Of a stretch of DNA of 64,000 nucleotides, positions 3-20,800 are shown in pieces. The stretch's first letter is position 1, and each line of letters opens with the position of its first letter. Location: the NCBI RefSeq assembly GCF_013343005.1, contig NZ_CP054491.1, positions 620,001 to 684,000 on the forward strand, read 5' to 3'. Source of the stretch: Candidatus Reidiella endopervernicosa. Its GTDB lineage: Bacteria; Pseudomonadota; Gammaproteobacteria; GCF-013343005. Under the pieces are notes generated by a model. That model ran no database searches, was not told the origin of the DNA, and saw only the letters and a program-made list of their open reading frames with translations. Made by a program: the position numbers and the translations under genes.

Positions 3-998
3 GTTGTGGTGCGTGCACGCCCTGCTCAGCTGCGTGAGGTGGAGCGTTACCTTGATACCTCACAAAACGTAATGCATCGACAGGTGATTCTTGAGGCGAA
101 GATTCTCGAGGTAGAGCTGAGTGATGGCGCGCAGTCTGGTATCAACTGGTCGGCGCTGGCTGAGCAGAGCAGTATGAACCGTTCGCTGACCGTAGGGCAG
201 ACGGGTGGTGGTTCATCTATAGCCGATGGTTCTTCAGAAATTGCCGGCAACACAGGTGTGCTCGACCCCAACGCACTGTCCCAGATTGTTGGAACCAGTG
301 CCTCAGCCTTTGGCGGCGTTTTCAGTCTGGCGCTCAGCAGCGGTGACTTCACCGCCTTTATTGAACTACTGAAATCGCAGGGTGATGTGCAGGTGCTCTC
401 CAGTCCGCGTGTCGCAACCATGAACAATCAGAAGGCGGTGATCAAGGTCGGTAATGATGAGTTTTTTGTAACCGAAATTCAGAGCGATACCACCAGCGGT
501 ACCGGCGGTACCACCACCACGCCAGAGATTACCCTGACCCCCTTCTTCTCCGGTATTGCGCTCGATGTGACACCACAGATCAGCGCAGATGGTTTTGTCA
601 CGCTGCATATCCACCCCTCGGTCAGTGAGGTCACCGACCAGACCAAACACATCACCGTTGGCGGGCAGGATCAGACCCTGCCGTTGGCCTTCAGCAGCGT
701 ACGTGAATCGGACACCATTATTCGTGCGCAGAGCGGTCAGGTGGTGGTGATAGGTGGTCTGATGAAGGACAAGACCAGCCGTGACCGTGCCGCAACTCCG
801 GGGCTGGGAGATCTGCCGATGGTTGGTAATCTCTTCCGCCACAAACGTGACAGCAAGCAGATGAGCGAACTAGTCATCCTGCTGCGCCCGATGGTGGTAA
901 AGGATCAGAAAGACTGGATTCGTGAGCTGCAGAAATCACAGGGACGCTTCAATAGTTTTAGCGGTGAGATGGAGCGTCGTCAGACGCGTCAACGATAA
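3..998 (+). CDS. mshL: MSHA pilus secretin MshL (C-terminal part, cut by window edge)
   Basis: This is the outer-membrane secretin of the MSHA type IV pilus, through which the pilus fibre would leave the cell. The frame is open to the left edge, so only about the last 331 residues are seen. The C-terminal secretin signature is clear: VVVIGGLMKDK, then PGLGDLPMVGNLFRHKR and a hydrophobic VILLRPMVV stretch, as in GspD/PilQ/MshL proteins. A Gly/Ser/Thr-rich loop around residues 165-180 fits the variable gate region. It is followed after 45 bp by the ATPase gene mshM, the usual MSHA order. The family is certain; the mshL name rests on the neighbouring msh genes. Confidence 0.93.
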   Translation, partial: VVVRARPAQLREVERYLDTSQNVMHRQVILEAKILEVELSDGAQSGINWSALAEQSSMNRSLTVGQTGGGSSIADGSSEIAGNTGVLDPNALSQIVGTSASAFGGVFSLALSSGDFTAFIELLKSQGDVQVLSSPRVATMNNQKAVIKVGNDEFFVTEIQSDTTSGTGGTTTTPEITLTPFFSGIALDVTPQISADGFVTLHIHPSVSEVTDQTKHITVGGQDQTLPLAFSSVRESDTIIRAQSGQVVVIGGLMKDKTSRDRAATPGLGDLPMVGNLFRHKRDSKQMSELVILLRPMVVKDQKDWIRELQKSQGRFNSFSGEMERRQTRQR

Positions 999-1043
999 GC
1001 AGTCGGTACAGAGGGATTCCGAGTCGGTGTTGGGTGAAGCGCA

Positions 1044-1958
1044 ATGTATCTAGAGCACTTTGCACTGAGTGAGATGCCCTTCACCATCACGCCCAATACA
1101 GGTTTTTTCTTTGAGTACGGCGACTATCGTGCTGCACACAATATGCTGCTGCTGGCACTCCGCTCGGGCGAAGGTTTTCTCAAGGTCGTGGCAGAGGTCG
1201 GGATGGGTAAAACACTACTCTGTCGTGCACTGCTAAATGATCTCGGTGATGACTATGTCACCGCCTATATTCCCAATCCACAGTTGACCGCACCAGGTCT
1301 ACGCATGGCGCTAGCCGATGAGCTTGGACTCGAGTTCTCACGTAACATCGGACAGCATCGACTGCTTAAACTGATAAATGAATATCTGGTGGAGCAGCAC
1401 GCGGCCGGTAAGCGTGTGGTGCTCGTGATTGATGAGGCGCAGGCGCTACCCGATGAGGGATTAGAGGCGTTGCGCCTGTTGACCAATCTAGAAACCGAAA
1501 GCAGCAAACTGCTGCAAGTGGTGCTGTTTGGTCAGCCAGAACTGGATGAACGTATATCTCATCCCTCTTTGCGGCAGCTTAAACAGCGCATCACCTTTAG
1601 CCATCGTCTCAAGCCACTCGACTATCCATCACTGGTTGCCTACCTGCGTTATCGACTCCATGTTGCCGGCTATCGTGGTACCGAGTTATTTACACCCGGT
1701 GCAATGAAACGACTCTATCGCAGTAGTCGTGGCATCCCGCGTGTTATCAATATACTCAGCCACAAGGCCTTAATGGTCGCTTTTGGTAAGGGTGATGAGA
1801 AGGTGCGCAGTGGATATATGAAAGCAGCGATTCAGGACTCTACGGATGTGCTCTCATCGACCTTCAGTCGTTCGCCGATCTTGGCTTACTGGTTGGCCTC
1901 ACTGCTGACCTTCTCAGCCGTAGTGATTGGTGTAGTTATTTGGAGTCGTCTGTCGTGA
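1044..1958 (+). CDS. mshM: MSHA biogenesis AAA ATPase MshM
   Basis: ExeA/GspA-type AAA ATPase, 304 residues, thought to help assemble the secretin through the cell wall. The Walker A motif AEVGMGKT lies at about residues 50-57 and the Walker B motif VVLVIDEAQ at about 126-134. A single hydrophobic segment (ILAYWLASLLTFSAVVIGVV) near the C terminus would anchor it in the inner membrane. The N-terminal YLEHFALSEMPF is typical of this family. It lies between mshL and mshN and its stop overlaps the mshN start by 4 bp (GTGA), so the two are probably translationally coupled. Confidence 0.93.
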   Translation: MYLEHFALSEMPFTITPNTGFFFEYGDYRAAHNMLLLALRSGEGFLKVVAEVGMGKTLLCRALLNDLGDDYVTAYIPNPQLTAPGLRMALADELGLEFSRNIGQHRLLKLINEYLVEQHAAGKRVVLVIDEAQALPDEGLEALRLLTNLETESSKLLQVVLFGQPELDERISHPSLRQLKQRITFSHRLKPLDYPSLVAYLRYRLHVAGYRGTELFTPGAMKRLYRSSRGIPRVINILSHKALMVAFGKGDEKVRSGYMKAAIQDSTDVLSSTFSRSPILAYWLASLLTFSAVVIGVVIWSRLS

Positions 1959-3391
1959 GCCTGATCAATGAGATGCTCAAGGACCTCGAGAGCCGTAAGG
2001 GCGTGAACGCATCACAAGGCGTGCCCTACACCGATCTCAACAGCAACATTCAGCGTAGACCGACAATACCGGTCTGGTTGATAGTGGCACTGCTTGTCGC
2101 CGCACTGCTGGTTGGTCTGGCTGCGTGGCGCATGATTAATAAGTCTAGTGCTGATGACATTAAGGTGTCGGAGAATCAGTCGACAGTAGAGCCTGTCGTT
2201 GAAAAGAGAGTGGTTGAGCCAGAACCGCTAGCTGAGCCTGAGCAGGCAAAGGCGGAAGTGGTAAAAACAGAAACTGTTGCAAAAGCGCCAGCGAAAATAA
2301 TTCCTCTGGTACAAGCAACCAGGGTTGCACCTGAACTACCGATAAATAAACCGGAGCTAAAACGGACCGAGCCGAAGGTTGTGCATGAGAGGCTTGCGGG
2401 GCTATCAAGCATTGCGGTGGAATCTAAAGATGAGTGGTCACGACTCAAATTTAGCTTCAATAAACGCGTCGACTATAGGCTCGTATCGGCACGCGAAGGA
2501 AAAGAGTGGCGACTCATCATAGAAAAGGCAGAATTGAAGAGCGTTCCACCACCACCCACGGATCTGGGTGTGGTCTCACAACTCGATATTGAACATAAAG
2601 ATCGCCGTCTGGAGGTGGTGATGCAGGGGGCCGTGCCGCTCAAAGCGAGCAGTAGCTCGGCACGTTCGGCGGCTAACAATGTTGTAGTGCTCGATTTTGT
2701 AGCTGATTCGAACCCGGAGCCTGTTGTTGTGGCTGTGGCAGAGAAACATAAGGTGGCCAAAGTACCTGAGCCGAAACCTCATGCAACGGTTGAGAAGCGC
2801 GCTGTAGTATTGAGCCGTGATGAGCAGGCGGAGCAGTACTATCAACAGGCGGTAGATACGCTTGAACGGGGAGAGATTGCTGAGAGTGAGTCCATCCTAC
2901 GCAAGACGCTGTCCTACTCTGCAAAACATCGTGGCGCACGTGAGTCACTATCGATGTTAATGATCAATGCTAACCGCCTGCGAGAGGCAGGCGATATACT
3001 CATCGACGGCATCGCACTTGATGGGGAATACCTCAACTATCGTGAGCTCTATGCGCGTCTACTGGTGGCAGAGCGACAGGTTGATCGAGCGCTGCATATA
3101 CTCAAACGTGACCTGAATGAAAAAACACTACACAGTGATCAGGACTATCTAGCACTGATTGCTGCCCTTGAGCAGCAGCTTGAACAGCACGTTGATGCGG
3201 CGTCACACTACCAGGCTCTGGTCGATCAACAGCCCGGCAGGGGACTCTGGTGGATGGGGCTGGCGATCTCCCAGGAGAGTCTCGATCAGTTCGATAGTGC
3301 ACTACAGTCATATCGAAATGCAGCAGGTAGTGGCAACCTGCCGACGAACGTTGTCGACTATGTTAATGGACGTATCGGGGCGCTCGACTAG
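1955..3391 (+). CDS. mshN: MSHA biogenesis TPR protein MshN
   Basis: Inner-membrane protein of the MSHA machine with a short cytoplasmic N terminus, one transmembrane helix at about residues 39-58 (PVWLIVALLVAALLVGLAAW), a long Glu/Val/Lys-rich periplasmic linker and C-terminal TPR-like helices from about residue 290. I chose GTG at 1955 because it gives the family start MSLINEMLKDLESR and a 4-bp overlap with mshM; an upstream TTG at 1940 in the same frame is less likely. Of the MSHA genes it is among the least conserved, so the assignment uses both sequence and position. Confidence 0.88.
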   Translation: MSLINEMLKDLESRKGVNASQGVPYTDLNSNIQRRPTIPVWLIVALLVAALLVGLAAWRMINKSSADDIKVSENQSTVEPVVEKRVVEPEPLAEPEQAKAEVVKTETVAKAPAKIIPLVQATRVAPELPINKPELKRTEPKVVHERLAGLSSIAVESKDEWSRLKFSFNKRVDYRLVSAREGKEWRLIIEKAELKSVPPPPTDLGVVSQLDIEHKDRRLEVVMQGAVPLKASSSSARSAANNVVVLDFVADSNPEPVVVAVAEKHKVAKVPEPKPHATVEKRAVVLSRDEQAEQYYQQAVDTLERGEIAESESILRKTLSYSAKHRGARESLSMLMINANRLREAGDILIDGIALDGEYLNYRELYARLLVAERQVDRALHILKRDLNEKTLHSDQDYLALIAALEQQLEQHVDAASHYQALVDQQPGRGLWWMGLAISQESLDQFDSALQSYRNAAGSGNLPTNVVDYVNGRIGALD

Positions 3392-3418
3392 AGCCGGTGC
3401 GTAGAGGGAGTGAGATAG

Positions 3419-5171
3419 ATGGCGGCACCTAAAAAAATCAGACTCGGTGACCTGCTGGTTGAGAGTAAGACGATCTCAGAACAGCAGCTGATGACTGCAC
3501 TCTCTGAACAGAAGAAGAGCGGTCGTAAACTGGGCGCAGCATTGATCGATCTCGGTTATATCACCGAAGATCAGATGCTCAAGTTTCTATCCCAACAGTT
3601 ACAGATCCCCTTTGTCGATATTCGCCAGTACCGCTTCGATCAGGAGATGGTGCGTAAACTCCCTGAAATCTACGCGCGTCGATTCCGTGCGCTGCTGCTC
3701 GATGAGCAGAATGGTGAGTGTCTGGTCGGTATGGCCGATCCGCTCGATATCTTCGCCTTTGATGATCTTTCTCGAATTCTGAAAAAGCCGATCCGTCAGG
3801 CCGTGGTGCGTGAGTCGGATCTGATGAGCACCATCGACAAGGTCTACCGCCGTACCGATGAGATCAGCAGTATTGCCGAGGAGCTAGGCGAGGAGCTGAC
3901 CGAGACCGATATCGATCTGGCGCAGCTAGCCAGTACCTCCGATGTCAGCGAGGCACCGGTAGTGCGACTTCTGCAGACGATCTTTGAGGATGCGGTGGTG
4001 GCGGGTGCCTCCGATATCCATATCGAGCCCGACGAGAGTGTGCTGCGCATTCGTCAACGCATCGATGGTGTGTTGCAGGAGCAGGTGATGAATGAGAAGC
4101 GCATCGCCTCGGCACTAGTCTCGCGCATGAAACTGATGGCCAATCTTAATATTTCAGAGAAACGCCTGCCGCAGGATGGGCGCTTCAATGTGCGTATTAA
4201 AGAGAAGAGTATTGATGTACGTGTCTCGACCATGCCGATCCAGTATGGCGAATCGGTGGTTATGCGGTTGCTCGACCAATCAGGTGGTACGGCCAATCTC
4301 GATGAAGTCGGTATGCCCGATGCGATACGTGATCGCATGCGCAGGAATGTAAATAAACCTCACGGCCTGGTGCTGGTAACAGGGCCGACCGGTAGTGGTA
4401 AAACCACCACCCTCTACGCGGCGTTGAGTGAGCTGAATAAACCAGAAACCAAGATTATCACTGTTGAGGATCCGGTTGAGTACCGACTGCCGCGTATCAA
4501 CCAGGTGCAGGTCAATCCAAAAATCGGCCTCACCTTTGCGGGTGTTCTACGTACCGCACTGCGTCAAGATCCCGATGTGGTTCTGATCGGCGAGATGCGT
4601 GACACCGAAACAGCCGAGATTGGACTGCGCGCCGCGATGACGGGCCACCTGGTTCTCTCCACATTACATACCAATGATGCGGTCAGTACCGCCAACCGTC
4701 TGATCGATATGGGTGCCGAGGGGTATCTGGTCGCGACCGCACTGCAAGCGATCCTGGCGCAGCGTCTGATTAGACGAATCTGCAGCGATTGCAGTGCTTC
4801 TTACGAGCCGATGCACATGAAAGAGTTTGGCTACGTAATCTGCTCGGAGAGGCCTTCACGGCGATTGAATTCAAGAAGGGTCTGGCTGTCCACACTGTAA
4901 CAATACGGGTTATCGCGGCCGTATAGGCGTCTTCGAACTGCTGGAGATCGACGAGCCGCTTGCCGATGCACTACGACGTAACGACTCGAGCGGCTTTGCC
5001 AAGGCAGCGGCAGCCAACAAGGATTACCGCAAATTAGCCTTTAATGCGCTCGACTATGCACGCCAAGGTATTACCAGTCTTGAGGAGGTAGTGCGCGTCT
5101 CGGGTGAAATCGATGAGATCGAACCGCTACAGCAGGTAGTAGTTGAGCCAGCACCGGAAGTGGAGGACTAG
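3419..5171 (+). pseudogene. mshE: MSHA pilus extension ATPase MshE, frameshifted near the 3' end
   Basis: GspE/PilB-type ATPase that powers pilus assembly. Residues 1-150 are an MshEN domain (RLGDLLVESK...), known in the family as a cyclic-di-GMP binding module. The ATPase core has Walker A GPTGSGKTTT near residue 321 and the Asp box LIGEMRDTETAEIGL. The open frame ends early at 4900, but the family C terminus continues in other frames: WLRNLLGEAF from 4828, then CPHCNNTGYRGRIGVFELLEI to TAG at 5169. Two single-base losses, near 4820-4828 and near 4878-4883, restore one protein with both CxxC pairs (CSDC and CPHC). It is either a recent pseudogene or two sequence errors. ATG at 3419 follows mshN by 27 bp. 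Confidence 0.88.
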
Positions 5172-5179
5172 ACTGAGCG

Positions 5180-6402
5180 ATGACGACATTCACTACAAGG
5201 CCCGCAACAAACGTGGCGAGGCGGTTGAGGGAAAACTGGAGGCTGCTTCGAGCGAACTGGTCGCCTCACAGCTGCTCAATAGCGACATCATTCCGATTAG
5301 CATCGATGAGGTGGCGGAGAAGCAGGATGTACTGGCTGATCTCAAGCGCAAGCTCGGTATCGGCCGTCCCGAACTCGATGATCTGATCCTTTTCTGTCGC
5401 CAGATGTACACCCTGGCCAAGGCGGGTGTACCGATCATAAGGGCCATTACCGGCCTTGCTGAGACATCACGTAACGCACAGCTGGTCGAGTCACTGCATC
5501 GCATGAAGTCCGATCTTGAGAGCGGCCGAGAACTCTCCACTGCAATGGCCACCTATCCTGAAATCTTCTCCACCCTGATGGTAAATATGGTGAAGGTGGG
5601 TGAGAACACTGGTCAACTCGATGAGGCGTTTGTGAAACTCTCGCAGTATCTGGAGATGGAGAAGGATACCCGCGACCGCGTGAAGGCGGCGATGCGCTAC
5701 CCGACCTTTGTCATTATCTTCATCGCCATCGCAATCGGTATTGTGAATATCTTTGTGATTCCCGCTTTTGCAGGTGTCTTTGAAAAATTCGATATGGATC
5801 TGCCGTGGCAGACATCACTGCTGATCAACACCTCAAACTTCACGGTCGCCTACTGGCCCTACATCCTGAGTTTGCTGATAGTCACGATTATTGCTGTGCG
5901 CTCTTACTTAAAAACAGAGCAGGGGCGTTACCGTTGGGACCGGCGCAAGCTGCGTCTGCCGCTCGTGGGAGGCCTATTGATGCGCGCCACTCTGGCGCGC
6001 TTCACTCGCTCCTTTGCGATGACCACCCGGGCCGGCGTACCGCTGGTGCAGGCACTTACTATCGTTGCGCGCGCAGTTGATAACAGCTTCGTTTCGGAAC
6101 GCATCAATAGCATGCGAAACGGCATCGAGCGTGGTGATTCACTGTTGCGCACTGCGACCGCTACCTCACTCTTTACGCCGCTGGTGCTACAGATGATCGC
6201 CGTCGGCGAGGAGACCGGTGCGGTCGACGATCTGCTTGATGAGGTGGGTGGTTTTTATGAGCGAGAGGTCGACTACGACCTGAAGAGTCTTAGCTCGGCG
6301 ATCGAACCGATTCTGATCGTAGCAGTCGGTATTCTGGTGTTGATTCTGGCACTCGGCATCTTCCTGCCGATGTGGGATCTGACCCAGATTGCCAAGCGTT
6401 GA
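5180..6402 (+). CDS. mshG: MSHA inner-membrane platform protein MshG
   Basis: GspF/PilC-family polytopic protein with two T2SSF domains of about 120 residues each (FCRQMYTLAKAGVPI... and FTRSFAMTTRAGVPL...) and hydrophobic segments near the middle and at the C terminus (ILIVAVGILVLILALGIFLPM). It forms the platform on which MshE assembles pilin. The start is uncertain. ATG at 5180 gives MTTF but is one frame off; adding one base near 5190 would give MTTFHYKARNKRGE, the usual family start. Without correction the open frame can begin only at TTG 5143 or CTG 5173. This would be the third single-base loss within about 370 bp. Confidence 0.88.
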
Positions 6403-6432: not shown

Positions 6433-7008
6433 TTGAGCGCTATTAAATCGAGAAGAGAGCGGGGTGCCTCGACCACCCAGTTTGTGGTGATTCTGGTGCT
6501 GCTGGGCGTCTTAATCACGGTGGCTACCGATCGAATCTGGACACTGCGGATGAGCGCTGAGCGAGTCGGTGTCGAGCATCTGATCGCCTCGCTAAAGAGT
6601 GCGTTGGCAGCGAGAATGACGTCGATTGTGGTTAAAGAGGGGGCGATGGGATGGGCGAGGCTCGATCGAGTCAATCCGATGAGTCTGCTCGGCAACGACC
6701 CGGATGCCGGGATCGTAGCTGGTAAGTTGCCGTGGAACTACATCGGTGAGCGCGACACGCTCACGCCAACCGAAATCCCGGTCCACCGCTGGTATTTCGA
6801 CCGCCAGCAACGGATGCTGGTCTATCGTGTCCTCTTTGACGAGGCGTTTGAGAGCACGCTTACCGGACCGAAGCGGATCCGTTTACAGCTCCTGCTCGAC
6901 TATGAGGACGATAATCGAAACGGTAGCCACGATGCGGGTGAACGGGTGAGAGCGATCTCACTGCAGGTGCTCGATAGATACCGCTGGTTGGAGAGCGAGA
7001 AAAGCTAG
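6433..7008 (+). CDS. mshF: MshF-like MSHA pseudopilin-type protein
   Basis: A 191-residue protein with a short basic N terminus, one hydrophobic helix at about residues 14-33 (TTQFVVILVLLGVLITVATD) and a periplasmic domain. It lies between mshG and the pilin gene, the position of mshF in MSHA operons. Unlike true prepilins it lacks the G-FTLIE cleavage motif; the equivalent region reads GASTTQFVVI. The start is TTG at 6433, 30 bp after mshG, with a GGGAG upstream; no ATG lies further upstream in this frame. The role of MshF is poorly known, so the name rests mainly on synteny. Confidence 0.75.
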   Translation: MSAIKSRRERGASTTQFVVILVLLGVLITVATDRIWTLRMSAERVGVEHLIASLKSALAARMTSIVVKEGAMGWARLDRVNPMSLLGNDPDAGIVAGKLPWNYIGERDTLTPTEIPVHRWYFDRQQRMLVYRVLFDEAFESTLTGPKRIRLQLLLDYEDDNRNGSHDAGERVRAISLQVLDRYRWLESEKS

Positions 7009-7059
7009 AGTCGTTCACATTAAGATGCCCTAGCATCATAATTTTTCAGGAAAATGTTC

Positions 7060-7089
7060 TTGCTATGCGTTGTAGCGCTGCGCTAGTAT
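7060..7089 (+). promoter_or_regulatory. Possible sigma-70 promoter before the pilin gene
   Basis: The 180-bp gap between mshF and the pilin gene holds TTGCTA at 7060 and TAGTAT at 7084, separated by 18 bp. A separate promoter for the major pilin is common in pilus operons. The match is modest and nothing else supports it. Confidence 0.25.
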
Positions 7090-7188
7090 CGGGCCATAGC
7101 TTCTATGCGGTATAGCGCCCGTTGTTGAACTAATAGCATTTCAAGATAACAAATTAAGATATATAGAACCCAAATAGGGCTGGGAGAG

Positions 7189-7551
7189 ATGAGGATGAGA
7201 AGAGCAAGTGGTTTTACCCTGATCGAGCTGATCATGGTTATCGTAATATTGGGAATTCTGGCAGCAACAGCACTGCCAAAGTTCGTCGATCTGAGCGATC
7301 AGGCGGAGCAGGCATCGATAGATGGAGTTGCTGGAGCGCTTAGCTCGGGAACGGCCATTAACTATGCTGCATGTAAAGCGGATCATGCCGATTGCACAAC
7401 CGTTGCTGATTGTGATGATGCAGCGGGTACCATGCAGGATATTCCTACCGGCCTGACTTACGCTGGTACAGCACCCGATTGCACAGTAACAAGTGCCTCG
7501 GGTTATTCGTCGAGCTATCGCAGTATTGCAATCACTGATCCTTCACCTTGA
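7189..7551 (+). CDS. mshA: Major MSHA-type prepilin (MshA/MshB-like)
   Basis: Type IV prepilin, about 120 residues. A short basic leader ends in Gly before the class IV cleavage site G-FTLIELIMVIVILGILAA, and the hydrophobic N-terminal helix would anchor the subunit and then form the fibre core. Four to five Cys residues in the C-terminal half could form the disulfide loop. GGGAG at 7182-7186 is better spaced for ATG 7195 (MRRASG) than for ATG 7189; either gives the same mature pilin. A strong hairpin terminator follows at 7572, so this gene may be made in larger amounts than its neighbours. Most MSHA loci carry separate mshB and mshA here; only one is present. Confidence 0.9.
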   Translation: MRMRRASGFTLIELIMVIVILGILAATALPKFVDLSDQAEQASIDGVAGALSSGTAINYAACKADHADCTTVADCDDAAGTMQDIPTGLTYAGTAPDCTVTSASGYSSSYRSIAITDPSP

Positions 7552-7571
7552 TCTAGTGAATCTTCGAATTT

Positions 7572-7594
7572 AAAAGGGGCCGAAAGGCCCTTTT
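7572..7594 (+). terminator. Rho-independent terminator after the pilin gene
   Basis: AAAAGGGGCC-GAAA-GGCCCTTTT forms a GC stem with a GNRA-type loop and a T run 20 bp after the pilin stop codon. It would separate the abundant pilin message from the downstream genes. Confidence 0.85.
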
Positions 7595-7665
7595 GATTCT
7601 GAAACGATATTGTTACGAATATAGTGCATGGCACATTGTTAGGTCTTTGAGAAAACACTCTATTG

Positions 7666-9591
7666 ATGCAGTTTAAAGACAGATTAATTAATGTGAGGCC
7701 TAACGAGTGGATCGCTTCGATATTTTTTGTGGTATCACTCTACTTTGGTCTGAAATTTACCGGTGGGGTGCGTTTCGACTTTATGTCGATAGCCGTGCTT
7801 CTCTTAATCGCTTCGGCACTCATTTCATCAAAGGGCTATTTTCCCGCCTCAATTCTTGCAAATCTAAAATATCCACTTGTCGCTTTCATGGCTTTGACTG
7901 TGTGGATTGCCATCTCGGTGTTGTGGAGTGTTGCGCCATCCACAACATACCTTTTGATGGCGCTGCCAATGGCGATGCTATTTTCCATGATATTCGGTGC
8001 ATCTATGTCTGTCGGCCTGAGGTCATTGCTGGCGTATCTGTTGATGGTTTGTGGCGTTCTGCTTGCGGTTTTAAGTGTTTTTCAAACGGTTATTTTAGAT
8101 GCAGGCCGCCCGACAGGGTTGTTTATTAATACAAACAGTAACGCGGCGCTGATGAGTCTGATGGTGTTGCCGGTTATATCGTCCTTCTTTTCTGAAGGAT
8201 CCCTCAGAAAGGATGTTGTCAAAGGCATAGTGATTACCCTTTTGACGTTAACCATCTTTCTTTGCCAAAGCCGGGGAGCGCTTCTAGGGTTAACGATTGC
8301 TCTACTCTTTGTTTTTTATGTTTTAAGAGAGGTGAGCTTTAGAAAAAAAATAGCACTGATCATATGTCTGGCTGTCGGGTTTGTTGCTGCGGAATTGATT
8401 CAAAAACGCTCGTTGACCGATCGTATTGAACAGACCGTCGTTGCCGTGAACACAACTGCAACGACAGCGCTTTCAGATCGAACCGATATCTGGAATGCTG
8501 CGTGGGAGATGTACAAGGCGCGCCCATATGTTGGCTCAGGATGGGGAACGTTCTGGGCCTCCTATCCGTCGCACAAGAAAAATGAGGAGAGATCGGCAGG
8601 TCAGCACGTCCATAATGACTATTTGGAGATGCTGGTCGAGCTCGGTCCTGTTGCTGTCATTCTGCTAGCTATTGCTGCGACTCTGCTGTTCAAACAGGCA
8701 GCGAGAGTTCTAAGAATAGACAAACAGACCCGTTATGAAGCTGCTGGTATCTATGCGGCAGTCTTGGCCGTATCAATACATAGCCTGTTTACATTTAATT
8801 TCTATCTGATTTCAATTCTGATAATTGTATGCCTCTATATCGGCTGGTTGACCGGATATGAACGTGGCGCGCCACTGATCGGTATTGCTTCTGAAGGTAA
8901 AAGCATCGTGAGTGATAGTGGTCAGCTAATAAGTTACGTAATTATTTTTCTAGCGGTGACATGGCTGACTCTGTTAACCATTAGCGAATACCGGCTGAAT
9001 AATATTAATGATAGCGACAACGCGGGTGAGGCGATCCTCAAAATCAGTGAGGCTGGTAAGCTGTTTCCGTTTACAGATCGGCCAGAGATTTTAATAGCCA
9101 GACAGATCGATAGGGCACTGAGAGAGCAGAGTGTCACTATTGACAATAGAGATCGTGTGATTGAGTTTGCACTTGTGCAGCTAGAGCGGGCAGAAGAGAA
9201 GTTTCCGATTAGATGGGAGAACTATTTTTATCGGGCTCAGTTAATGAGAAATTCAACAAAAGCGTATTCAGTTGCGGTTATTGAGCATAACTTTCAACGG
9301 TCACTGGAAAATAACCCGGCCTATCTCCCGGCGCGGTTAAACTATGCCGACTATCTGGAGTCGCTGGGTCGCGGTGCAGATGCATTCAAGCTGCTTGAAG
9401 ATGGGTGGGGCCGTTACTACTATGAGAGTACAGTCAATATTGAGAGTTATCTGGAAAAAATAGTTAGTGGTAGAGTCGAGGCAGGCCATGTTGCGGAGGC
9501 GCACAAGGCTGAGCAGCTGTTAGAGAAAATCAGAATGAGGATTGGGAAGAGAAGAGGAGAGTTTGTTAACTTCGTGGCGAAGCTTCCGTAA
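7666..9591 (+). CDS. O-antigen ligase/polymerase-like membrane protein (Wzy_C), possible pilin oligosaccharyltransferase
   Basis: Polytopic membrane protein of about 641 residues with roughly ten hydrophobic segments in residues 15-460. The large periplasmic loop contains SDRTDIWNAAWEM, GSGWGTFW and HVHNDYLEMLVELG, the signature of the Wzy_C family (WaaL, Wzy, PglL/TfpO). The C-terminal 150 residues are soluble and helical, TPR-like (ARLNYADYLESLGRG). ATG 7666 directly follows a TTG in the same frame. It lies between the pilin gene and mshC, not a standard MSHA gene position. PglL/TfpO-type enzymes that glycosylate pilins often lie beside the pilin gene, so pilin glycosylation is a reasonable inference, but LPS ligase or polymerase activity is also possible. 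Confidence 0.82.
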   Translation: MQFKDRLINVRPNEWIASIFFVVSLYFGLKFTGGVRFDFMSIAVLLLIASALISSKGYFPASILANLKYPLVAFMALTVWIAISVLWSVAPSTTYLLMALPMAMLFSMIFGASMSVGLRSLLAYLLMVCGVLLAVLSVFQTVILDAGRPTGLFINTNSNAALMSLMVLPVISSFFSEGSLRKDVVKGIVITLLTLTIFLCQSRGALLGLTIALLFVFYVLREVSFRKKIALIICLAVGFVAAELIQKRSLTDRIEQTVVAVNTTATTALSDRTDIWNAAWEMYKARPYVGSGWGTFWASYPSHKKNEERSAGQHVHNDYLEMLVELGPVAVILLAIAATLLFKQAARVLRIDKQTRYEAAGIYAAVLAVSIHSLFTFNFYLISILIIVCLYIGWLTGYERGAPLIGIASEGKSIVSDSGQLISYVIIFLAVTWLTLLTISEYRLNNINDSDNAGEAILKISEAGKLFPFTDRPEILIARQIDRALREQSVTIDNRDRVIEFALVQLERAEEKFPIRWENYFYRAQLMRNSTKAYSVAVIEHNFQRSLENNPAYLPARLNYADYLESLGRGADAFKLLEDGWGRYYYESTVNIESYLEKIVSGRVEAGHVAEAHKAEQLLEKIRMRIGKRRGEFVNFVAKLP

Positions 9592-9597
9592 TACGAT

Positions 9598-10068
9598 ATG
9601 AAAATGTGTGTAATACAAAACAGAGGGTTCTCTCTCATAGAGTTGATCATGGTTATAATTCTCCTTGGAATTGTAGCTGTTGTGGCAGTTCCAAGACTGC
9701 CATCAATCACAGATTTTGATGAAATGGGTTTCTTTGATGAACTGGTAGGTGCGGCGCGTTATGGACAGAAGCTGGCAATCGCGACCAACTGCAAGGTAGA
9801 GCTGGAGGTGACGGCTTCGAGCTATGCGCTCTCGATGCCTAGCAGCGTTGGTAACTGCTTTGCCTTATCACCAACCTTCTCAACCGATGTGCCTCACCAC
9901 TCGGCATCCGGGCAGTACAGCAATGCCGCCCCGAGCGGTGTTTCGATCTCCAATCCTGCCACGATCGTTTTTGATGCATCGGGTGGTACCAGTACCAGTC
10001 ACACCTTCTCTATTGATGGTCGCTCCTTTACCGTGCATGCCACCAGCGGTTATGTGGAGAGACTGTAG
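9598..10068 (+). CDS. mshC: MSHA minor pilin MshC
   Basis: Prepilin-like protein of 156 residues. The leader MKMCVIQNRG precedes FSLIELIMVIILLGIVAVVAV, the class IV prepilin cleavage site and membrane helix. The C-terminal domain (VFDASGGTSTSHTFSIDGR) resembles GspH/FimT-type minor pilins. It starts 6 bp after the ligase-like gene and overlaps mshD by one base, so the genes are co-transcribed. Minor pilins prime and regulate fibre assembly. Confidence 0.85.
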   Translation: MKMCVIQNRGFSLIELIMVIILLGIVAVVAVPRLPSITDFDEMGFFDELVGAARYGQKLAIATNCKVELEVTASSYALSMPSSVGNCFALSPTFSTDVPHHSASGQYSNAAPSGVSISNPATIVFDASGGTSTSHTFSIDGRSFTVHATSGYVERL

Positions 10069-10514
10069 TGAGGCGTTCTCTGCATCAAGGTGGCTTCACG
10101 CTGGTTGAGACGATCATGGCGATCGTGATTATCTCGATTTCGGTGGTGGGTGTGTTGAAGGTGATGGACTACACCACTATGCATAGCGCCGACCCAATGG
10201 TGCAGACACAGGCGGTGGCAATTGCCGAGGCCTATCTCGAGGAGATCCTCTCGAAGTCGTATGACGATCCGGACGGAAGTGATGGTGAGTCGGCACGCAC
10301 TAGCTTCGATGATGTCGACGACTACAACGGCGTATCCGATTCAACCCCGGTCAACAGTCTCGGAAGCCCCATAACATCGCTTTCGGGATACAGCGTGGCG
10401 GTAAGTGTCGCGACCGAAACGGTGAGTGGTGCAACGATGAAATGCGTCGATGTGACAGTCTCACATGCAACCGGACTATCTATTGATGTGAGTGGTTATC
10501 GTGGCAGCTTCTAG
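10068..10514 (+). CDS. mshD: MSHA minor pilin MshD
   Basis: Prepilin-like protein of 148 residues with the class IV motif G-FTLVETIMAIVIISISVVGV after a short basic leader (MRRSLHQG). The start is GTG at 10068, whose G is the last base of the mshC stop. The soluble part carries the PMVQTQAVAIAEAYLEEILSK segment typical of MshD/PilV-like minor pilins. It is part of the mshCDOP block. Confidence 0.85.
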   Translation: MRRSLHQGGFTLVETIMAIVIISISVVGVLKVMDYTTMHSADPMVQTQAVAIAEAYLEEILSKSYDDPDGSDGESARTSFDDVDDYNGVSDSTPVNSLGSPITSLSGYSVAVSVATETVSGATMKCVDVTVSHATGLSIDVSGYRGSF

Positions 10515-10521
10515 TCTGACA

Positions 10522-11337
10522 ATGAGGCGCTGTGCAGGCTTTACCCTGATCGAGATGATCATGGTGATCATTATCACTGGAATTATTGCCACTGTGCTGG
10601 CGGGGGTGATCAAGCGTCCGATCGATGGTTATCTCGATCTGACACGCCGTGCCGAGCTGGTCGATGCCGCCGATTCAGCGCTCAGACTCATCGCGCGCGA
10701 TATTCGTCGAGCACTGCCCAACAGTGTGCGAGTCGATTCAACAGGGCCATCGCTGGAGATGATCAACACCGTCGATGCGGTGCGATATCGCCTCGGCCCA
10801 CCCGGAAATCAGAGCAAACGTCTCCGCTTCAATCCCGATGATGACGAGTTCAACACCATCGGTGAGTTCACCAATCTCACTCCGCCTGTAACCAGTTCAA
10901 CCGACTATCGGCTGGTGATCTACAACCTGGGAATCTCAGGGGCGAGTGCCTATGAGAATGCCAATGTCATTACCCCGGCGGCCACCCAGGTCACCATTAC
11001 CGACGATGGAACAAGTGACCACATTGCGCTGAGCAGTGCCTTTCAGTTTGCCTTCGAGTCACCACGCCAGCGTCTCTATGTGGTCGATGCATCACCGGTC
11101 AGCTATATCTGTGACACCGCCAATGAAACGCTACGCCGTTATGCCAGCTACTCCATCGGTTCAACGCAGCCCTCGGGCAGCAGCGTGGTGGTGACCAAAC
11201 ATCTGACAGCGTGCTCCATCAGTTACGATGCAGGCTCTACCGGTCAGGCCGCGCTGGTGACCCTCTCGCTAACACTGAGTGATGGAGGTGAGAGCGTCAC
11301 CATGCTCCATCAGGTGCGGGTGGATAACGTGCCATGA
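10522..11337 (+). CDS. mshO: MSHA minor pilin MshO
   Basis: A 271-residue minor pilin of the GspJ/PilW type. The leader MRRCAG precedes FTLIEMIMVIIITGIIATVLA. ATG 10522 is preferred because it gives a normal short prepilin leader; a GTG at 10492 in frame would overlap mshD by 23 bp. The motif LIARDIRRALPNSVRV after the helix is characteristic of MshO. Its stop overlaps the mshP start (ATGA at 11334). Confidence 0.86.
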   Translation: MRRCAGFTLIEMIMVIIITGIIATVLAGVIKRPIDGYLDLTRRAELVDAADSALRLIARDIRRALPNSVRVDSTGPSLEMINTVDAVRYRLGPPGNQSKRLRFNPDDDEFNTIGEFTNLTPPVTSSTDYRLVIYNLGISGASAYENANVITPAATQVTITDDGTSDHIALSSAFQFAFESPRQRLYVVDASPVSYICDTANETLRRYASYSIGSTQPSGSSVVVTKHLTACSISYDAGSTGQAALVTLSLTLSDGGESVTMLHQVRVDNVP

Positions 11338-11792
11338 TGAAGTCTAATCAACAGCAAGGCTTCTCACTGATCGGTGCCATCTTTCTGATGGTAGTGCTTG
11401 CGGCAGTGGGTGGTTACATGGTCAGCATCAGCAGTGGTTTCCATATCTCGGGTGCTAATGCCGTTGAAGGTTCGCGTGCCTACTACGCTGCAAAGGGTGG
11501 TCTGGAGTGGGCGATCAGCGAACTTGAGCTCGATAATGTGGCCGTCGATTCGGCTTCTGCCTGCAGCGGTACGGTCAATGGCCAGGTAACCAACTACTCA
11601 TCCGGTGCGCTCGACGGTTTTAGCGTGTCGCTCAGTTGTAGCCCCAGTGGTTACACGGAGATGCCACACGACCCTGATTCGATTTTTATCGTCGAGGCAC
11701 GCTCCTATAAAACGGCTCTGGGTGTTGGAGCGATCGGTTCACTCGGATATGTTTCGCGTTCAATGAAGGCGAAGGTGACTGATGCGCCGTAA
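11334..11792 (+). CDS. mshP: MSHA biogenesis protein MshP (PilX-like)
   Basis: A 152-residue protein with a short N terminus (MMKSNQQQG), then FSLIGAIFLMVVLAAVGGYMV, a prepilin-like helix in which the usual Glu5 is replaced, as in PilX/MshP proteins. SRAYYAAKGGLEWAISEL is the family signature after the helix. It overlaps mshO by 4 bp. Confidence 0.85.
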   Translation: MMKSNQQQGFSLIGAIFLMVVLAAVGGYMVSISSGFHISGANAVEGSRAYYAAKGGLEWAISELELDNVAVDSASACSGTVNGQVTNYSSGALDGFSVSLSCSPSGYTEMPHDPDSIFIVEARSYKTALGVGAIGSLGYVSRSMKAKVTDAP

Positions 11793-11909
11793 AGTGTGAT
11801 CAAATAGACACTTGATTGAGCCGTGTGGTGGATGAAAGCTATACGTGCGTTACATTGAGTCAGGTGAGATGTGCGCTGTACGGAGATGTCGGAGACTATT
11901 ATTCAGGTT

Positions 11910-14900
11910 ATGAGAACGTCTGTTACAAATTACATTATCCGAATCCTGCTACCGGTTCTATTAATTGTTGCGGGAAGTGCAGCTATCGGTAGTTCTGCAT
12001 ACGCAGCAGACTGCTCATCTTATGCGGGTTTGGCGACGTTAAACGAATTTTTTCGAGACAATACAAATGCCAATTACAGTGCTGCCGGTTTTGTTGAGGT
12101 GAAAATTCTCGATACTTCCATTGAATACGACACATACAAGAACTGGACGGTGAGATTATGTGAGCGCAATGGCCCAGGGCCAAATGACACGGATGGCTGC
12201 AGCAGTCCAATTGGTAGTGAAATAACTATTGCTGATTTTACTGAAAATAGCGTGCTGCCTTGGTTGGTGCTTAAGAATGGCACGATCGGTAAATATATGC
12301 ATTTCAAGAATGGATTTGATGCGATTCTTCGAGATGGTGGTGGCAAGGTAATTGACTACGTTAGTGTTGGTTACAGTCCTCAGGAGGATGGAAGTTGTGA
12401 CCGCGATGACCTCCCTACGATTCGGTGTTTTCTGCGCCTGGAAACAGCGCCAAGTTTATTTTCCGTATACCCGACGGTACCGGTGACTGGGACCATGAAA
12501 CATCAGCAGCGGAAGACCCGACGGAGGACGCATCGAACGAGGGTGATACCGTACCGGCGTTAAGTTTTGAGGATCAATCGGTCGCACCGGGCGATACGGT
12601 GACGATCACCTTTACCCTTGATGCACCAGCGACGGCCCAGATCGACCTAGAGTTCTACACGATCGATGGAACGGCCACCTCGGCGGGTGGGGACTATACC
12701 GAGGTCGGCACGCAGATTGCGCCTTTTGAAGTCTCGATCGGCGTTGGGGAGAGTGAGGTAACGGTAGAGATACCGACTGGCGCCGGTGCGACGATTGGTG
12801 ACTACTTCGACTTCTTCGTCAATGTCTCTGACACTTCGGCAGGCGGTGCAACGATTACCGACCACGTTGGTACCGTTACCTTCACCGAGGCTTCGGGACC
12901 GGATCACTACGCTATTTCACACGCGGGCGTCGGGGTTACCTGTGACGGTGACGGCACACGATGCGTCCCATGCGGCAGTGGCACCGGCGGCCGGAACCGA
13001 AATCACCCTGACCACCTCGCCACTGGTCGATAGCGGTAGCGGATCGACCTACACCTTCACCGGCACCGAGACGTCGACCACCTTCTATCTGACCGAGACC
13101 ACCGCAACCACCTCACCTCACATCAATATCAATGTGACCGACGGCACGGCGAGCGAGGATGCCAGCGAGGATCCGGCACTGCAGTTTGTCAATACAGCGC
13201 TGCTCTTCAGTAGCACTACAAGCCAGACCTCCTGCGAGAACTCTGCGACCATGACGCTACGTGCAATCCGTACCGATGATTCGACCGGTGCCTGCGTGGC
13301 GCGTGTGACGGGCGATCTGGCAGTCGACATGGCCTACGCCTGTGTCGATCCGACCACATGCCATGGTGACAAGAACGACGCGGTGACGATCCGTGCCCTC
13401 GATACCGACGGCACTACGCTACTCAACAGTGGTTCGATCGCCGATAATCCCGATGACTCGGTGAGTGACTACATCAGCCGCACCCTGCGTTTCGATGGCT
13501 CGGGTGTCGCCAACTTCACCGCCAGTTATAGCGATGCCGGTGAGATTGCTCTCCATGCACAGTTAAGCTTGGCGGCGAGTAGCCCAGACCCGGCGATCAC
13601 GCTCAGCGATAGCTCAGAGAGCTTCGTGGTGGCACCGGAGAGTTTCAAGGTCGAGTCGTTCAAGAGCGATGGCACCACCGCACTGAATAACAGTGGTAGC
13701 TCGGGTGCACCGAGCCAGGTGGCGGGCGACGCCTTTCAGCTCAAGGTGGTGGCGCAGTGCAGTGACGGTACGGTGACCAAGAACTACGCCTGGGATACCG
13801 ACATCAGCGCCGTGGCACCCTCATCACCCGACACCGGTTCGGGCGGTACGCTCGGCAACGTCTACTTCAGTAGTGACGACACCAAGGTCTATGGCGATGC
13901 CGGTACCACCACGAGTGCATCGGCCTCAGACTTTAGTGACGGTGTGGCACTGCTGACCAACGCACGCTACAACGAGGTCGGCAGTGTGACCTTTCAGGCC
14001 AATGCCAACAACTACCGGGATGATGCATCGGCCGATATCACCGGTACCACCTCGGGTGAGGCGGGGCGTTTTATCCCCGATCGCTTTATCCTCTCGGCAC
14101 CGACGCTGACCAACCGCTCGGATCTGGCACCGACGATTCCCGCAGACTTCACCTATATGGATGAGGCATTGGAGCTCGGTTTCACGCTTACTGCTGTCAA
14201 TGCACAGGGAGAGACAACACAGAACTACGAAGGGAGTTACGCGAAGCTGGATCCGACCGCGAGTGGTGACCTCGGTATCGGAGCACGTGATCCGGTGGGA
14301 GGAGCCGACATGACCTCAAGAGTTGATGTAGGAACCTCATCAGGAACATGGAGTGGTGGCACAGTGACGGTTTCTGCTGAGGTGGCTCTTAACAAACTTG
14401 GTTCGCCTGATGGCCCCTATGAGGGGCTGCTGTTTGGCGTAATACCATCAGATGGTGATGGCGTAACACTCGATCCATCGACGCTTGATCTCGATGTGAA
14501 TGGCAACTCCACCAACGACCACGCCGAGATTGGTTCAACCGATATACTCCTCGGTCGGCTCAACGTGGTCGATACCACCGGCCATGAGTCACTGCCACTG
14601 CCGGTCACATTGCAGGCAGAATACTTCGATGGTAGTGGTTTTGTTACCAACGACCGGGATGATGCCTCGCTCTACAACTCGACCTATGGCGAACTCGATA
14701 ACTACACCGATAATCTACCCACCACTAGTGGTGAGCCGACCCTGAGTGGTAGCGGTACGCTGAGCGACGGAACGGGTAGCGGCATGAGTCTATCGGCACC
14801 GGGTTCGGGCAATACCGGCAGCGTCGATCTCGAGTACTGTCTCGAGACCTGCACCAACGGGACGGGTGGGGCGGGACTCGGCTATCTGCAGTATGACTGG

Positions 14901-14999
14901 GATGGTGACGGCAGCCATGATGATAACCCGACCGGCACCGCACGCTTCGGTATCTACACAGGTAGTGATCGTCAGATCTATATCGAAGAGATCTACTAG
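11910..14999 (+). pseudogene. mshQ: MSHA biogenesis adhesin-like protein MshQ, frameshifted
   Basis: Large secreted or surface protein, the last gene of the MSHA operon. ATG 11910 gives a clear signal peptide ending SSAYA-ADCSS. The N-terminal domain runs to about 12420, a Calx-beta-like domain (TVTITFTLDAPATAQ, DYTEVGTQIAPF) to about 12900, then repeated MshQ domains (FVVAPESFKVESFKSDG) to a C terminus ending IYIEEIY. The coding frame changes near 12420 (one base lost) and near 12945, where VTC is followed in another frame by PVTVTAHDASHAAVAP, consistent with loss of about 11 bases. Both joins restore family-like sequence. It ends in a strong terminator. Confidence 0.82.
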
Positions 15000-17895: not shown

Positions 17896-20800
17896 TTAGA
17901 GGGCGTTGAGTGCCTGGTTGAGTCGCTCTTCGATGCGTTTTTTGTGGTTGAGATAGTGAATTGTCTGCAGTGAGTCGACACCGCTATCGCTGATCATCGC
18001 CTTTGAGATGTCGATATCGGTGATGTAGATCGGGTAGCCCTCACCGCTGCTGCGCCGATCAAAGATGTCGCGTGCCACCTCCTGAAAGAGGGCGTCACCG
18101 TGTTCCAGGCTGGAGAACTCACGATCGTCACAGTAGATGGTAAAGACGGGGCGATCATCCATCAGGTCGCCGATTACCTGTACGTTGAAGTAGCGATGAA
18201 CGCCGGCAGAGTGCGGTACCTTGCGTGGTTCAAGCCGGAATTCGCCGGTATTGGTGTTCTTGACGATCTGGTAGAGCGAGACATCACCCTGGAAACCGGC
18301 CTCGCCGGTCTGCTCACTAATCATGAAGCTGAGACGTGGCAGTACCGTATCGAAGAACCACTGGTATTGAGTGAGCAGTGTGGCGCTGTCGTGGAAGGGA
18401 AGCTCCTGGTGGAACAGTGAACCGCGCTCATCGAGCACATAGATCTCAGCGGTTCCATCGTGGACCTGATAGAAGAACTGCACTGCGTTGCGTTTGTTGG
18501 CCTTGAACAGCAGCGGTAGTGGCGACTCCTTCAAGGTGTAGCGGTCGACGATGATCGGGCTGAACTCGGATTGTGTGGCTGAGAGTGCGCGCAGCAGGTC
18601 GTCCACCAGTCCGGCTGACTCGAAGGTGAGGCGGTCGTTCTTGGCGCTGAGGATGTAGAAACGATCCTTAATGCGCAGGATGTAGCGTGAGTTGGTGACG
18701 CTTCCTGGTGAGAAATAGCACTCCGAGACGTCGTGGTAGAGGTGTTCGATACGACGTGCGATCGAGTTACCGCGTGCAGATGAGAGCGAGTAGACCGAGA
18801 TCGATGCCGGTGGTTCGTTGGCGGAGATCGGAGAGTTCTCAAAATATTTACACAGGCTTCGCAGCACTGCAGTGTTGCCGCTGGCCCGATAGGTATGCAC
18901 CTCCTGCCAGCTATTAACGGTGATCTGGTCGAAGTGTAGCGCCAGGTTCTCCCAGGTGGCACCAAAGCTGAGCGCATCGGTACGGCCAGTGGTCAGGTGG
19001 GAGCCCATCAGGTGGGTGGTTGCGAGCGGATCGAAGCCGATGTTCACAAACAGTGCAGCGGCACGCACCTGTGCCGGTTTGGCCAGGTCGTCGAGGTCTG
19101 ATTTGGGTAGCTTGCCCTTGGGGAAGTTGCGCGAAAACGCCTCAATGGTGGCACGTAGCTCCTTCTCGGTCAGGTGGCTTGATTCGGTCTGTACAGTGAA
19201 CATCGTGCGCCGGGTAACGATATGGTTGAAGTGACACCAGGCGAGCAGTTCGAGCAGACTGCTGGCGCGTTTAACGGGTGTGTCAGCTAGCCGTGCCGTG
19301 CCAGGCAGGGTGAGATAGAGTGACCAGGTGTGGAGACCCTTATCGTCGCAGTTCTGCTGGAAGGTGAGGTGAGGTTCGCTCAGATCTTCTGAGATACCAG
19401 GATTGACCAGTTCAACCTTGCCCGCCTTACGCTCCAGGGCGGCATAGATCTTTCGCCCCAGGATATTGAGATCTGAAGGATTGATGTGGGCATCGTCGGC
19501 ATGCTCACGGATCAGTGCCGAGAGCATGCGATAGCTGAGAGTCAGTTCGTCGACCAGCATCTTGCGCTCCTTGAGCACCTGGTCGATCTTCCACCGCTGA
19601 CCGCCATGGATAGCGAAGCGAAGGCGGTTAGTCCGCGATAGTCGACGCCGTCTGCCTATTCGTAGTTGAGAGCGCGAGCGAACGACGAAGAAGATGCAGC
19701 AGCGGCTTTATGTCGGCGTAGAGTCACTGAGGGAGTTGTGTAGAGCCGCGAAGAGGTGATTACGCAACGAACGCAGGACGGTCGGGGCGCCGTAGGCATA
19801 AACGGTCGCGTTAAGTATTTGCCGCTTGCTTGGGCTTGATGCCCAAAACATGCTTCCGCAAAATAGCGACTCCCCGATCCGGGCGTGAGTCGAGCAGAAC
19901 AACATGCCCTTCGCCCCATCCCCAGTCCTGGGTGATCTCGCGTAGCAGTTCATGGCGCCACGTCTTGGCGTGGCGGTGGTGAGTGAGCGGTAGGTCGACC
20001 TTAAAGTAGAAGCAGCGGCGTGCCAGCTCGCGACGATCCCCCTCCATCTCCAGATACTCAGCCACCTTCTCATACATCATCACATAGGGGTCAAGATCAT
20101 CAAGGCTGGTGACGTTTTCAAATACGGCGCGTTTGTAACGCAGGCTGAGTAGATCGATGTTGGGGTGTTCGTTGGCGTAGGCCTCCATCACCAGGATCTT
20201 CAGTACCGACTTATAGGGAGAGTCGATGCCCTTGAAGAGCTGCCAGAGTGCGGCACCGATGAACTCCTCCGCAGGGATTCTGCTCAGACCACCAAAATCG
20301 ATCACATCGTGCTCTTTTACAAATCGCTGGCGTAGCAGCATCTGTGTGTAGTTGTCGTAGTCGTGCTCATGTTCGGGTGGGACCAGCCACCAGATCGGAA
20401 TCCGACCGGCGATGTGCAGGCCGGTGCGGTAGAACTCATCAAGCAGCAGGTTGTGCTGAGCACTACCGCTGCTCTCCTTAGAGAGTTCAGACTTCTCACC
20501 ACTACGGAACTTCTCGGCATCCATGAGGAAGAAGTGGACCTCAAGCCCCAGTGTCTCTGCCCACTTCTCAATCGCCTCCGCCTTCTGTTGCAGTTCGGCA
20601 ATCTGTGTTTCGCTTAGATCGGGGGTGTAACAGAGCCAGAAGTCGAAGTCGCTTTTGTCGGAGTAGGCGATGGTACCGCTACTGCCCATGACGAAGATCG
20701 ACTGAATGTAGGGGCGCAGCAGGGCGCGTCGTTTGTGTTCAAAGCCTTTGAATAACTTCTTGGTGGAGCCGACGATCGCTTTGGTGGGCTGGAAATCGTA

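Follow-up and report, generated by a model that had tools for sequence, protein, structure and literature searches.

A WaaL-type ligase with a tetratricopeptide repeat tail in an MSHA pilus operon: a probable O-oligosaccharyltransferase for the major pilin

Introduction

In Pseudomonas aeruginosa, a Rho-independent terminator lies between the pilin gene pilA and the gene for a modifying transferase. The unrelated transferases TfpO and TfpW occupy this same place after pilA in different strains, group II strains possess neither, and the non-glycosylating TfpY and TfpZ share the pilin-terminator-accessory layout (PMC11841053, excerpt). The O-oligosaccharyltransferases (O-OTases) comprise the classes TfpO/PilO, TfpM, PglS, and PglL; TfpO and TfpM are without the PglL_A and Wzy_C_2 domains, and PglL enzymes of general specificity are known (PMC12645811, excerpt). 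PglL-type genes often adjoin a pilin gene (21 of 31), and R224, R298, and H349 (meningococcal numbering) are important in E. coli WaaL and common to PglL (PMC3643930, excerpt). In Vibrio cholerae, pglL (VC0393) is located upstream of the operon for the mannose-sensitive hemagglutinin (MSHA) pilus, glycosylation of which was described as "tempting to speculate" (PMC6901666, excerpt). Here, we characterize a ligase gene in a 64,000-nt stretch of the gammaproteobacterium Candidatus Reidiella endopervernicosa (NZ_CP054491.1, positions 620,001 to 684,000; hereafter the window, in whose coordinates features are given). The gene is linked to the MSHA operon, its product has the predicted fold and the catalytic residues of a WaaL-type ligase, and it probably serves as an O-OTase dedicated to the pilin MshA, to which it would transfer sugar.

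Sequence and predicted structure of the ligase

The gene in question is the following.

7666-9591, + strand: WaaL-type ligase with a tetratricopeptide repeat (TPR) tail, the proposed MshA O-oligosaccharyltransferase (Wzy_C domain, fold, conserved MSHA link, residues)

Its open reading frame (ORF; 7663/7666-9591) encodes 641 amino acids, or 642 from an upstream TTG, with zero internal stops. The Pfam Wzy_C domain was found at residues 190-334 (80.3 bits; cut-off, 31.7), and the TPR tail, weak in Pfam (E 0.095), is clear at residues 438-629 of an AlphaFold2 model built with 30 sequences (pLDDT 89.2, pTM 0.90). Residues 8-402 of the model resemble WaaL (7tpg) with a VIA Z of 26.2 and a root mean square deviation of 4.7 over 359 aligned residues; Foldseek gave an E of 1.4e-7 for the model against 7tpg, and the sequence profile of the ligase matches 7tpg at 3.6e-24. 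The runner-up folds for the membrane domain were FtsW/RodA (Z 14-16.5; FtsW, 16.5). Residues 438-629 resemble TPR proteins, including MamA (Z 15.6) and OGT (Z 14.6), with PilF among many others. The protein thus displays what defines the WaaL/PglL ligase superfamily, namely, a Wzy_C domain, the WaaL fold, and equivalents of R215, R288, and H338 of E. coli WaaL. A WaaL O-antigen ligase proper would be encoded in a lipopolysaccharide (LPS) locus, whereas this gene has MSHA genes on both flanks. The top NCBIfam match was TIGR03097 (PEP_O_lig_1, an exosortase-linked putative O-glycosylation ligase); its 59 bits are far below the curated cut-off of 188.1, and this identity was rejected.

A preliminary description of the locus had called the gene PglL-like and proposed comparing PglL_A and Wzy_C_2 with WaaL in a hidden Markov model (HMM) search. 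Neither PglL_A (PF15864) nor Wzy_C_2 (PF11846) matched the window ligase at E ≤ 1 in Pfam, so the PglL label was dropped; the fold match was to WaaL. PglL_A was also absent from the 24 families matched at E ≤ 0.1 by 19 ligases, the window ligase included, of which two showed a weak match to Wzy_C_2 (best E 0.0038). Only 3 of 369 genomes of the class carry PglL_A, and the genome of the window is not among them.

We then compared residues between the MSHA-linked ligases and three class proteins with PglL_A (L208-L210; L and G numbers denote our loci and genomes), placing positions by motif and taking the residue list and numbering from Schulz et al. 2013 (PMC3643930, excerpt). The equivalents of R224, R298, H349, G316, and G318 are kept in all 31 MSHA-linked rows, and those of N180 and H400 in 30. 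By contrast, Q178 corresponds to N in 23 rows and Q in 2, E404 to T in 19 and D in 8, and P406 to N in 28. Of the PglL-specific set, the window ligase keeps N180, G316, G318, and H400 and has N, T, and N for Q178, E404, and P406, respectively; the Glu and Pro of the PglL motif H-x3-E-x-P are therefore Thr and Asn. These replacements, together with the rarity of PglL_A in the class, indicate that ligases of the window type form a branch neighbouring PglL and not part of it.

Conservation of the ligase in MSHA clusters

The class search scored at most three candidates per genome, for which reason the slot ligase of G118 (below) was missed. The window ligase was matched in 114 of the 369 genomes at E ≤ 1e-3 and in 25, its own included, at E ≤ 1e-20. 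We compared the surroundings in the 24 other strong-match genomes and around five weaker matches. In 20 of the 24, representing 13 other families, the ligase is inside an MSHA cluster. It lies between mshA and mshC or mshD in 10 (G214, G071, G123, G163, G131, G154, G340, G119, G265, and G019) and directly after mshA, at a contig end, in G146. In G011, mshA and a piece of the ligase end one contig and a ligase piece and mshC start another, representing either one split gene or two; a weaker-match row of this genome (G011:C164) also belongs to an MSHA cluster, immediately following mshA where the contig ends. Elsewhere, the ligase follows mshP on the opposite strand (G110, G227, and G326, of one genus), precedes mshE (G081 and G310), or lies between mshG and mshA (G101, G235, and G120). 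No MSHA genes were seen in the stretches compared from the remaining four genomes (G078, G026, G171, and G181), although MshO occurs elsewhere in G026 and G171. None of the five weaker matches (G250, G040, G362, G109, and G118) was in an MSHA cluster, and none of the weaker class-search rows listed, compared by eye, was within 20 kb of an MshO match.

A second scan, of named genomes with one pattern, covered at least 79 loci and gave at least 16 with a ligase in the MSHA cluster. Six of these were already in the class set, including G123, which is Thiohalophilus thiocyanatoxydans DSM 16326, and at least 10 were new, including metagenome-assembled genomes of Thiohalomonas denitrificans, a member of the Betaproteobacteria, and a member of the Acidiferrobacterales with two ligases in tandem. 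Using an MshO profile at E ≤ 1e-15, we marked MSHA in 88 of the 369 class genomes and examined 79 of them; the nine left out mostly have the weakest MshO matches, and many assemblies are fragmented. Nineteen of the 79 have a window-type ligase in the cluster, and the other 60 gave further loci (L148-L207), including the slot ligase of G118 (L153). The ligase is thus carried by at least 20 of the 88 MshO genomes, as well as by G101 and G310, which have no MshO match. The survey that the preliminary description had called for accordingly came out in its favour: the presence of the ligase in the MSHA operon is real and conserved.

Two loci contain more than one ligase. In the MSHA operon of L046 (G131; 7172-11795), two pilin genes are each followed directly by a ligase gene, the two ligases being different, and L069 has two ligases in a row.

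A phylogenetic tree of 76 rows was constructed after rows of less than 160 bits or 550 amino acids, near-copies (L070, L073, L078, L080, L085, L096, L104, and L133), and partial rows (L050, L083, L084, L092, and L100) had been dropped. The tree places 31 of 32 MSHA-linked rows together in a 46-row set whose support is not strong (SH-aLRT 86). Three changes of the MSHA label are required on the tree, compared with a mean of 9.0 after shuffling, and none of 500 shuffles was as low. Five ligases in the sister set of 17 rows (L060, L062, L064, L090, and L101) are encoded no more than 300 bp downstream of PilA-type pilins. The window ligase, on an end branch of length 1.3, groups with L071 and L072 from Methylococcaceae and L077 from a symbiont (support 92). 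Across the wider ligase family, a pilin lies upstream in 29 of 110 cases against 38 of 716 background ORFs; some of the background ORFs are MSHA genes, and duplicate loci are counted among the 110.

In the same-genus pair L047/L054, the ligases (40% identity) and the MshA tails (38%) have diverged far more than mshE (89%), mshO (90%), mshD (79%), and mshC (70%), a hint only of co-divergence of pilin and ligase. Over 120 pairs, the correlation of ligase identity with the MshA tail (0.58) did not exceed that with mshC (0.78) or mshG (0.64); it is therefore not evidence of co-evolution, and that candidate explanation was set aside.

The place between mshA and mshC

Among the 60 further loci, mshA and then mshC are on one contig in 40; L183, L199, and L201 were excluded from this count for unclear labels or distances. 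In 34 of the 40 readable junctions, there is no ORF of 170 amino acids or more between the two genes, in agreement with the preliminary statement that MSHA loci usually run directly from mshA to mshC. Three of the others contain transferase candidates. The slot of L153 holds a ligase of a separate lineage that joins L066 and L134 in the tree, outside the main clade. In L162 (G060), a 636-residue membrane protein with a TPR tail is encoded at 6565-8472 on the reverse strand. By eye, it has DD in loop 1, K-E-N-x-x-T, and E-H-R-A-Y, as in the excerpted TMTC paper (PMC7801869), but the other TMTC motifs given in that excerpt (RxD and DW) are not clearly present. Pfam found TPR only, with no notable match for the membrane part; NCBIfam and PDB sequence searches were empty, and PF08409 was not found in its genome. 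We regard this protein as a GT-C/TMTC-like transferase only tentatively, since no family matched its membrane part convincingly and its motifs are incomplete. In L193 (G317), the slot (937-4781, reverse strand) encodes a 958-residue TPR-GT41-methyltransferase protein and a 360-residue TylF protein. GT41 is the family of O-GlcNAc transferases, and TylF acts on sugars. The slot ORFs of L151 (a Y1 transposase) and L187 (an AAA_14/DUF4143 protein) were ruled out as transferases, and the 171-residue ORF of L195 was not counted as one. The genes of L153, L162, and L193 suggest that this place has received different transferases more than once.

A hairpin, AAAAGGGGCC-GAAA-GGCCCTTTT, lies between the pilin and ligase genes of the window at approximately 7573-7597. 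Its predicted folding energy is -19 kcal/mol (z -2.8), and 5 of 200 shuffled sequences were as low. The + strand has only a short U tract (TTTT) for this hairpin, and a consensus scanner reported the hairpin on the - strand only. A simple scan for strong terminator-like hairpins in the 230 nt upstream of each gene found one before 10 of the 18 slot ligases (mean after shuffling, 0.1) and before none of 58 mshC, mshD, mshO, and mshG genes in the same loci. In ligase-free loci, a hairpin lies between mshA and mshC in 9 of 32 and upstream of mshD, mshO, or mshG in 0 of 92. These counts indicate that the hairpin belongs with the pilin gene and that the ligase sits behind it.

Gene organization of the window

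The order mshL-M-N-E-G-F-A-C-D-O-P-Q is found in the window, with mshL above its cut-off and the remaining genes assigned by order or similarity. The features around the ligase are as follows.

6-998, + strand: C-terminal part of mshL, the gene beginning before the window (TIGR02519, 285.6 bits; cut-off, 250.2)
1044-1958, + strand: mshM-like AAA ATPase (AAA_22; order as in related loci)
1940-3391, + strand: mshN-like TPR protein (TPR_19; order as in related loci)
3419-4900, + strand: mshE assembly ATPase, frame interrupted near the 3' end (tblastn with a relative's MshE)
5143-6402, + strand: mshG (46-62% identical to the MshG proteins of related MSHA loci; 37% for L055)
6433-7008, + strand: mshF-like gene (approximately 26-36% identity to genes at the same position in related loci)
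7189-7551, + strand: MshA-like major pilin, 120 amino acids, the proposed acceptor (N_methyl/IV_pilin_GFxxxE; class-III signal; position)
7573-7597, + strand: terminator-like hairpin after the pilin gene, a proposed attenuator (fold z -2.8; similar sites in related loci)
9598-10068, + strand: mshC-like pilin (N_methyl; class-III signal; order)
10068-10514, + strand: mshD-like pilin (N_methyl; order)
10492-11337, + strand: mshO-like pilin (33-44% identity to 11 MshO relatives)
11334-11792, + strand: mshP-like gene (order; tblastn)
12786-14999, + strand: main open frame of the mshQ-like gene (matches mshQ of related loci)

The arrangement initially described, with a pilin gene, a terminator-like hairpin, and a Wzy_C ligase gene with a TPR tail ahead of mshC, is therefore present apart from the PglL label. 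The mshE frame is open for 493 residues only, and similarity to a relative's MshE of 592 residues continues in two other frames to approximately 5114. Likewise, mshQ (11871-14999) appears scattered over several frames.

For the donor, the genome contains two genes of PF00953. The first belongs to the division cluster; the second adjoins a glycosyltransferase gene and is part of a polysaccharide cluster located 62 kb past the window. From their neighbours and by motif, we take these to be MraY and WecA-type, respectively. Another Wzy_C gene lies among glycosyltransferases at 1.31 Mb (L068 8449-9995; 1.308-1.310 Mb) and is split across two frames. These genes make a lipid-linked glycan plausible in this genome. 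The candidate Wzx gene (L217 662-1902) is likewise split, and frame breaks look frequent in this assembly. On the acceptor side, the window MshA ends in Ser-Pro and thus lacks the C-terminal Ser/Thr acceptor of TfpO/TfpM substrates; a conserved acceptor of this type was looked for by eye among the pilins of slot-ligase loci and not found.

A dispersed repeat of approximately 290 nt occurs in the window at 40738-41023, 56581-56868, 59142-59426, and 60638-60927 (71-98% alike to the reference copy); it extends into ORF ends and appears to interrupt genes. Pieces near 19708-20073 and in L068 at 11558-13226 are known from translations only.

Discussion

Related ligases recur at MSHA in a number of families, and the pilus encoded here therefore probably carries sugar attached by an enzyme that escapes the usual PglL model. 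The preliminary description had proposed a glycosylated MSHA pilin and had named, as a result that would speak against it, a best match to a WaaL or Wzy linked to O-antigen genes with no conserved link to MSHA. The first part is partly the case; the absence of an MSHA link is not, as 20 of the 24 strong relatives are in the cluster. For that reason, a glycosylated MshA remains the best explanation, despite the failed PglL domain test and tree neighbours that lie away from pilus loci. In the mechanism that we propose, a glycan would be built on undecaprenyl diphosphate and flipped into the periplasm, where the membrane domain of the ligase would bind it via Arg203, Arg272, and His316 and transfer it en bloc to a Ser or Thr of the MshA encoded just upstream. 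The TPR tail, periplasmic by analogy, probably helps to hold the pilin, and the hairpin after mshA may hold expression of the enzyme under the level of the pilin.

Several observations weigh against this assignment. The chief one for this very gene is that its nearest relatives, L071, L072, and L077, have no MSHA genes in their stretches; the neighbours of L072 include a Bac_transf gene and one for a Wzt-like ABC protein, and L077 adjoins a GT2/methyltransferase gene. More widely, no MSHA link is visible for 14 of the 46 rows in the set that holds most MSHA-linked ligases, 8 of the 20 MSHA-linked genomes place the ligase elsewhere in the cluster than after mshA, and five of the 20 (G227, G081, G326, G110, and G310, corresponding to loci L037, L043, L044, L048, and L060) have a second copy outside MSHA. 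Presence is patchy: G093, of the genus of G214, and G244, of the genus of G131 and G340, have the operon without the ligase. The same hairpin scan found no terminator upstream of 8 of the 18 slot ligases or of the slot genes of L162 and L193. No conserved acceptor was found in MshA, the C-termini of pilins in slot-ligase loci varying by eye, and neither a PF02397 initiator nor a clean Wzx was found in the genome, the Wzx candidate being frame-broken. The pattern of L047/L054 is not consistent across other close pairs, for example, L035/L040 with 56 against 73, where the ligase is outside the slot. Finally, mshE (3419-5143) is frame-broken in this assembly, by decay or by sequencing error.

Some of these points would be expected if the protein were a WaaL for LPS, or a ligase or polymerase of a surface polysaccharide, that is merely located in the MSHA operon and perhaps co-expressed for biofilm growth. 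WaaL is the closest solved fold, PglL_A is missing, and L072 and L077 have the neighbours described above, those of L072 including a sugar-phosphate transferase. We nevertheless consider this explanation unlikely: placement right after the pilin gene recurs in several families, the genome's other Wzy_C gene, despite its break across two frames, could serve such a role, and the slot is also occupied by unrelated transferases, of which one belongs to the O-GlcNAc (GT41) family. Slightly less likely is that the enzyme is indeed an O-OTase whose main target is a minor pilin (MshB, MshC, MshD, or MshO) or several periplasmic proteins. General PglL enzymes provide a precedent (PMC12645811, excerpt), the second ligase of L046 follows an mshC-like pilin, and MshA shows no conserved acceptor. 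However, the ligase follows mshA in the window, in G118, and in 10 other class genomes in which both sides are readable, and the terminator pattern links the place to the major pilin.

TfpY and TfpZ, which do not glycosylate, have the same pilin-terminator-accessory layout (PMC11841053, excerpt), and the tail resembles PilF among many others, so the protein might be an accessory of pilus assembly, like TfpY or a PilF-type TPR helper, with an inactive ligase domain. The invariance of the three key WaaL/PglL residues and the retention of the WaaL fold make this improbable. We give even less credence to a chance or decaying insertion with no function in this genome, an idea to which the broken mshE and probably broken mshQ lend themselves; the ligase frame is intact across 641 codons, and the frame breaks in other genes of this assembly make assembly error likely.

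Beyond the single gene, there is about an even chance that the place adjacent to mshA is a variable pilin-modification slot into which at least three unrelated transferase classes were acquired separately: WaaL-type ligases with a TPR tail (two lineages), a GT-C/TMTC-like protein with TPR, and a TPR-GT41 OGT-like protein accompanied by a TylF methyltransferase. Glycosylation of MSHA would in that case be widespread and of diverse kinds, would escape the PglL_A model, and would probably reflect pressure exerted by pilus-binding phages or by surfaces. If MshA is indeed the substrate of the window ligase, the MSHA pili of several lineages, structures that function in attachment and in biofilm formation, are glycoproteins, and the ligases form an O-OTase branch, with strong matches in 25 of 369 genomes, that the PglL_A model (3 of 369) misses. 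It would also connect MSHA to work on pilin glycosylation and phage escape in Pseudomonas and offer a set of TPR-tailed ligases for glyco-engineering. The arrangement of one gene with one adjoining candidate acceptor allows a clean test. In the open-access literature on MSHA glycosylation, ligases, and O-OTase classes, a ligase inside the MSHA operon was not named in the titles or abstract openings of the matches listed, among which a TPR-tailed O-OTase branch at MSHA is described nowhere; the excerpts of PMC7762298 and PMC8578077 contain nothing on a ligase at MSHA.

Among described enzymes, WaaL (7tpg) shares the fold of residues 8-402 of the window ligase; the aligned part is without the TPR tail, and the window gene is in a pilus operon. 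WaaL acts on lipid A-core. PglL and PglS resemble the window ligase in the Wzy_C core and the equivalents of R224, R298, H349, N180, G316, G318, and H400, and differ in that it has neither PglL_A nor Wzy_C_2 and shows the three exchanges at Q178, E404, and P406. Compared by description, it resembles TfpO and TfpM: a Wzy_C protein without PglL_A or Wzy_C_2, encoded with a pilin gene on each side and presumably cognate to the pilin. V. cholerae pglL, likewise compared by description only, is also an O-OTase gene near an MSHA locus for which MSHA glycosylation was suggested, but it is upstream of the operon and broad-spectrum, and its MSHA target is speculative (PMC6901666, excerpt). The closest parallel in gene order is the pilA-tfpO and pilA-tfpW cassettes of P. 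aeruginosa, with a pilin gene, a terminator, and a transferase; those cassettes belong to a type IVa PilA locus with reported modification (PMC11841053, excerpt), whereas here a TPR-tailed ligase in an MSHA operon would modify MshA.

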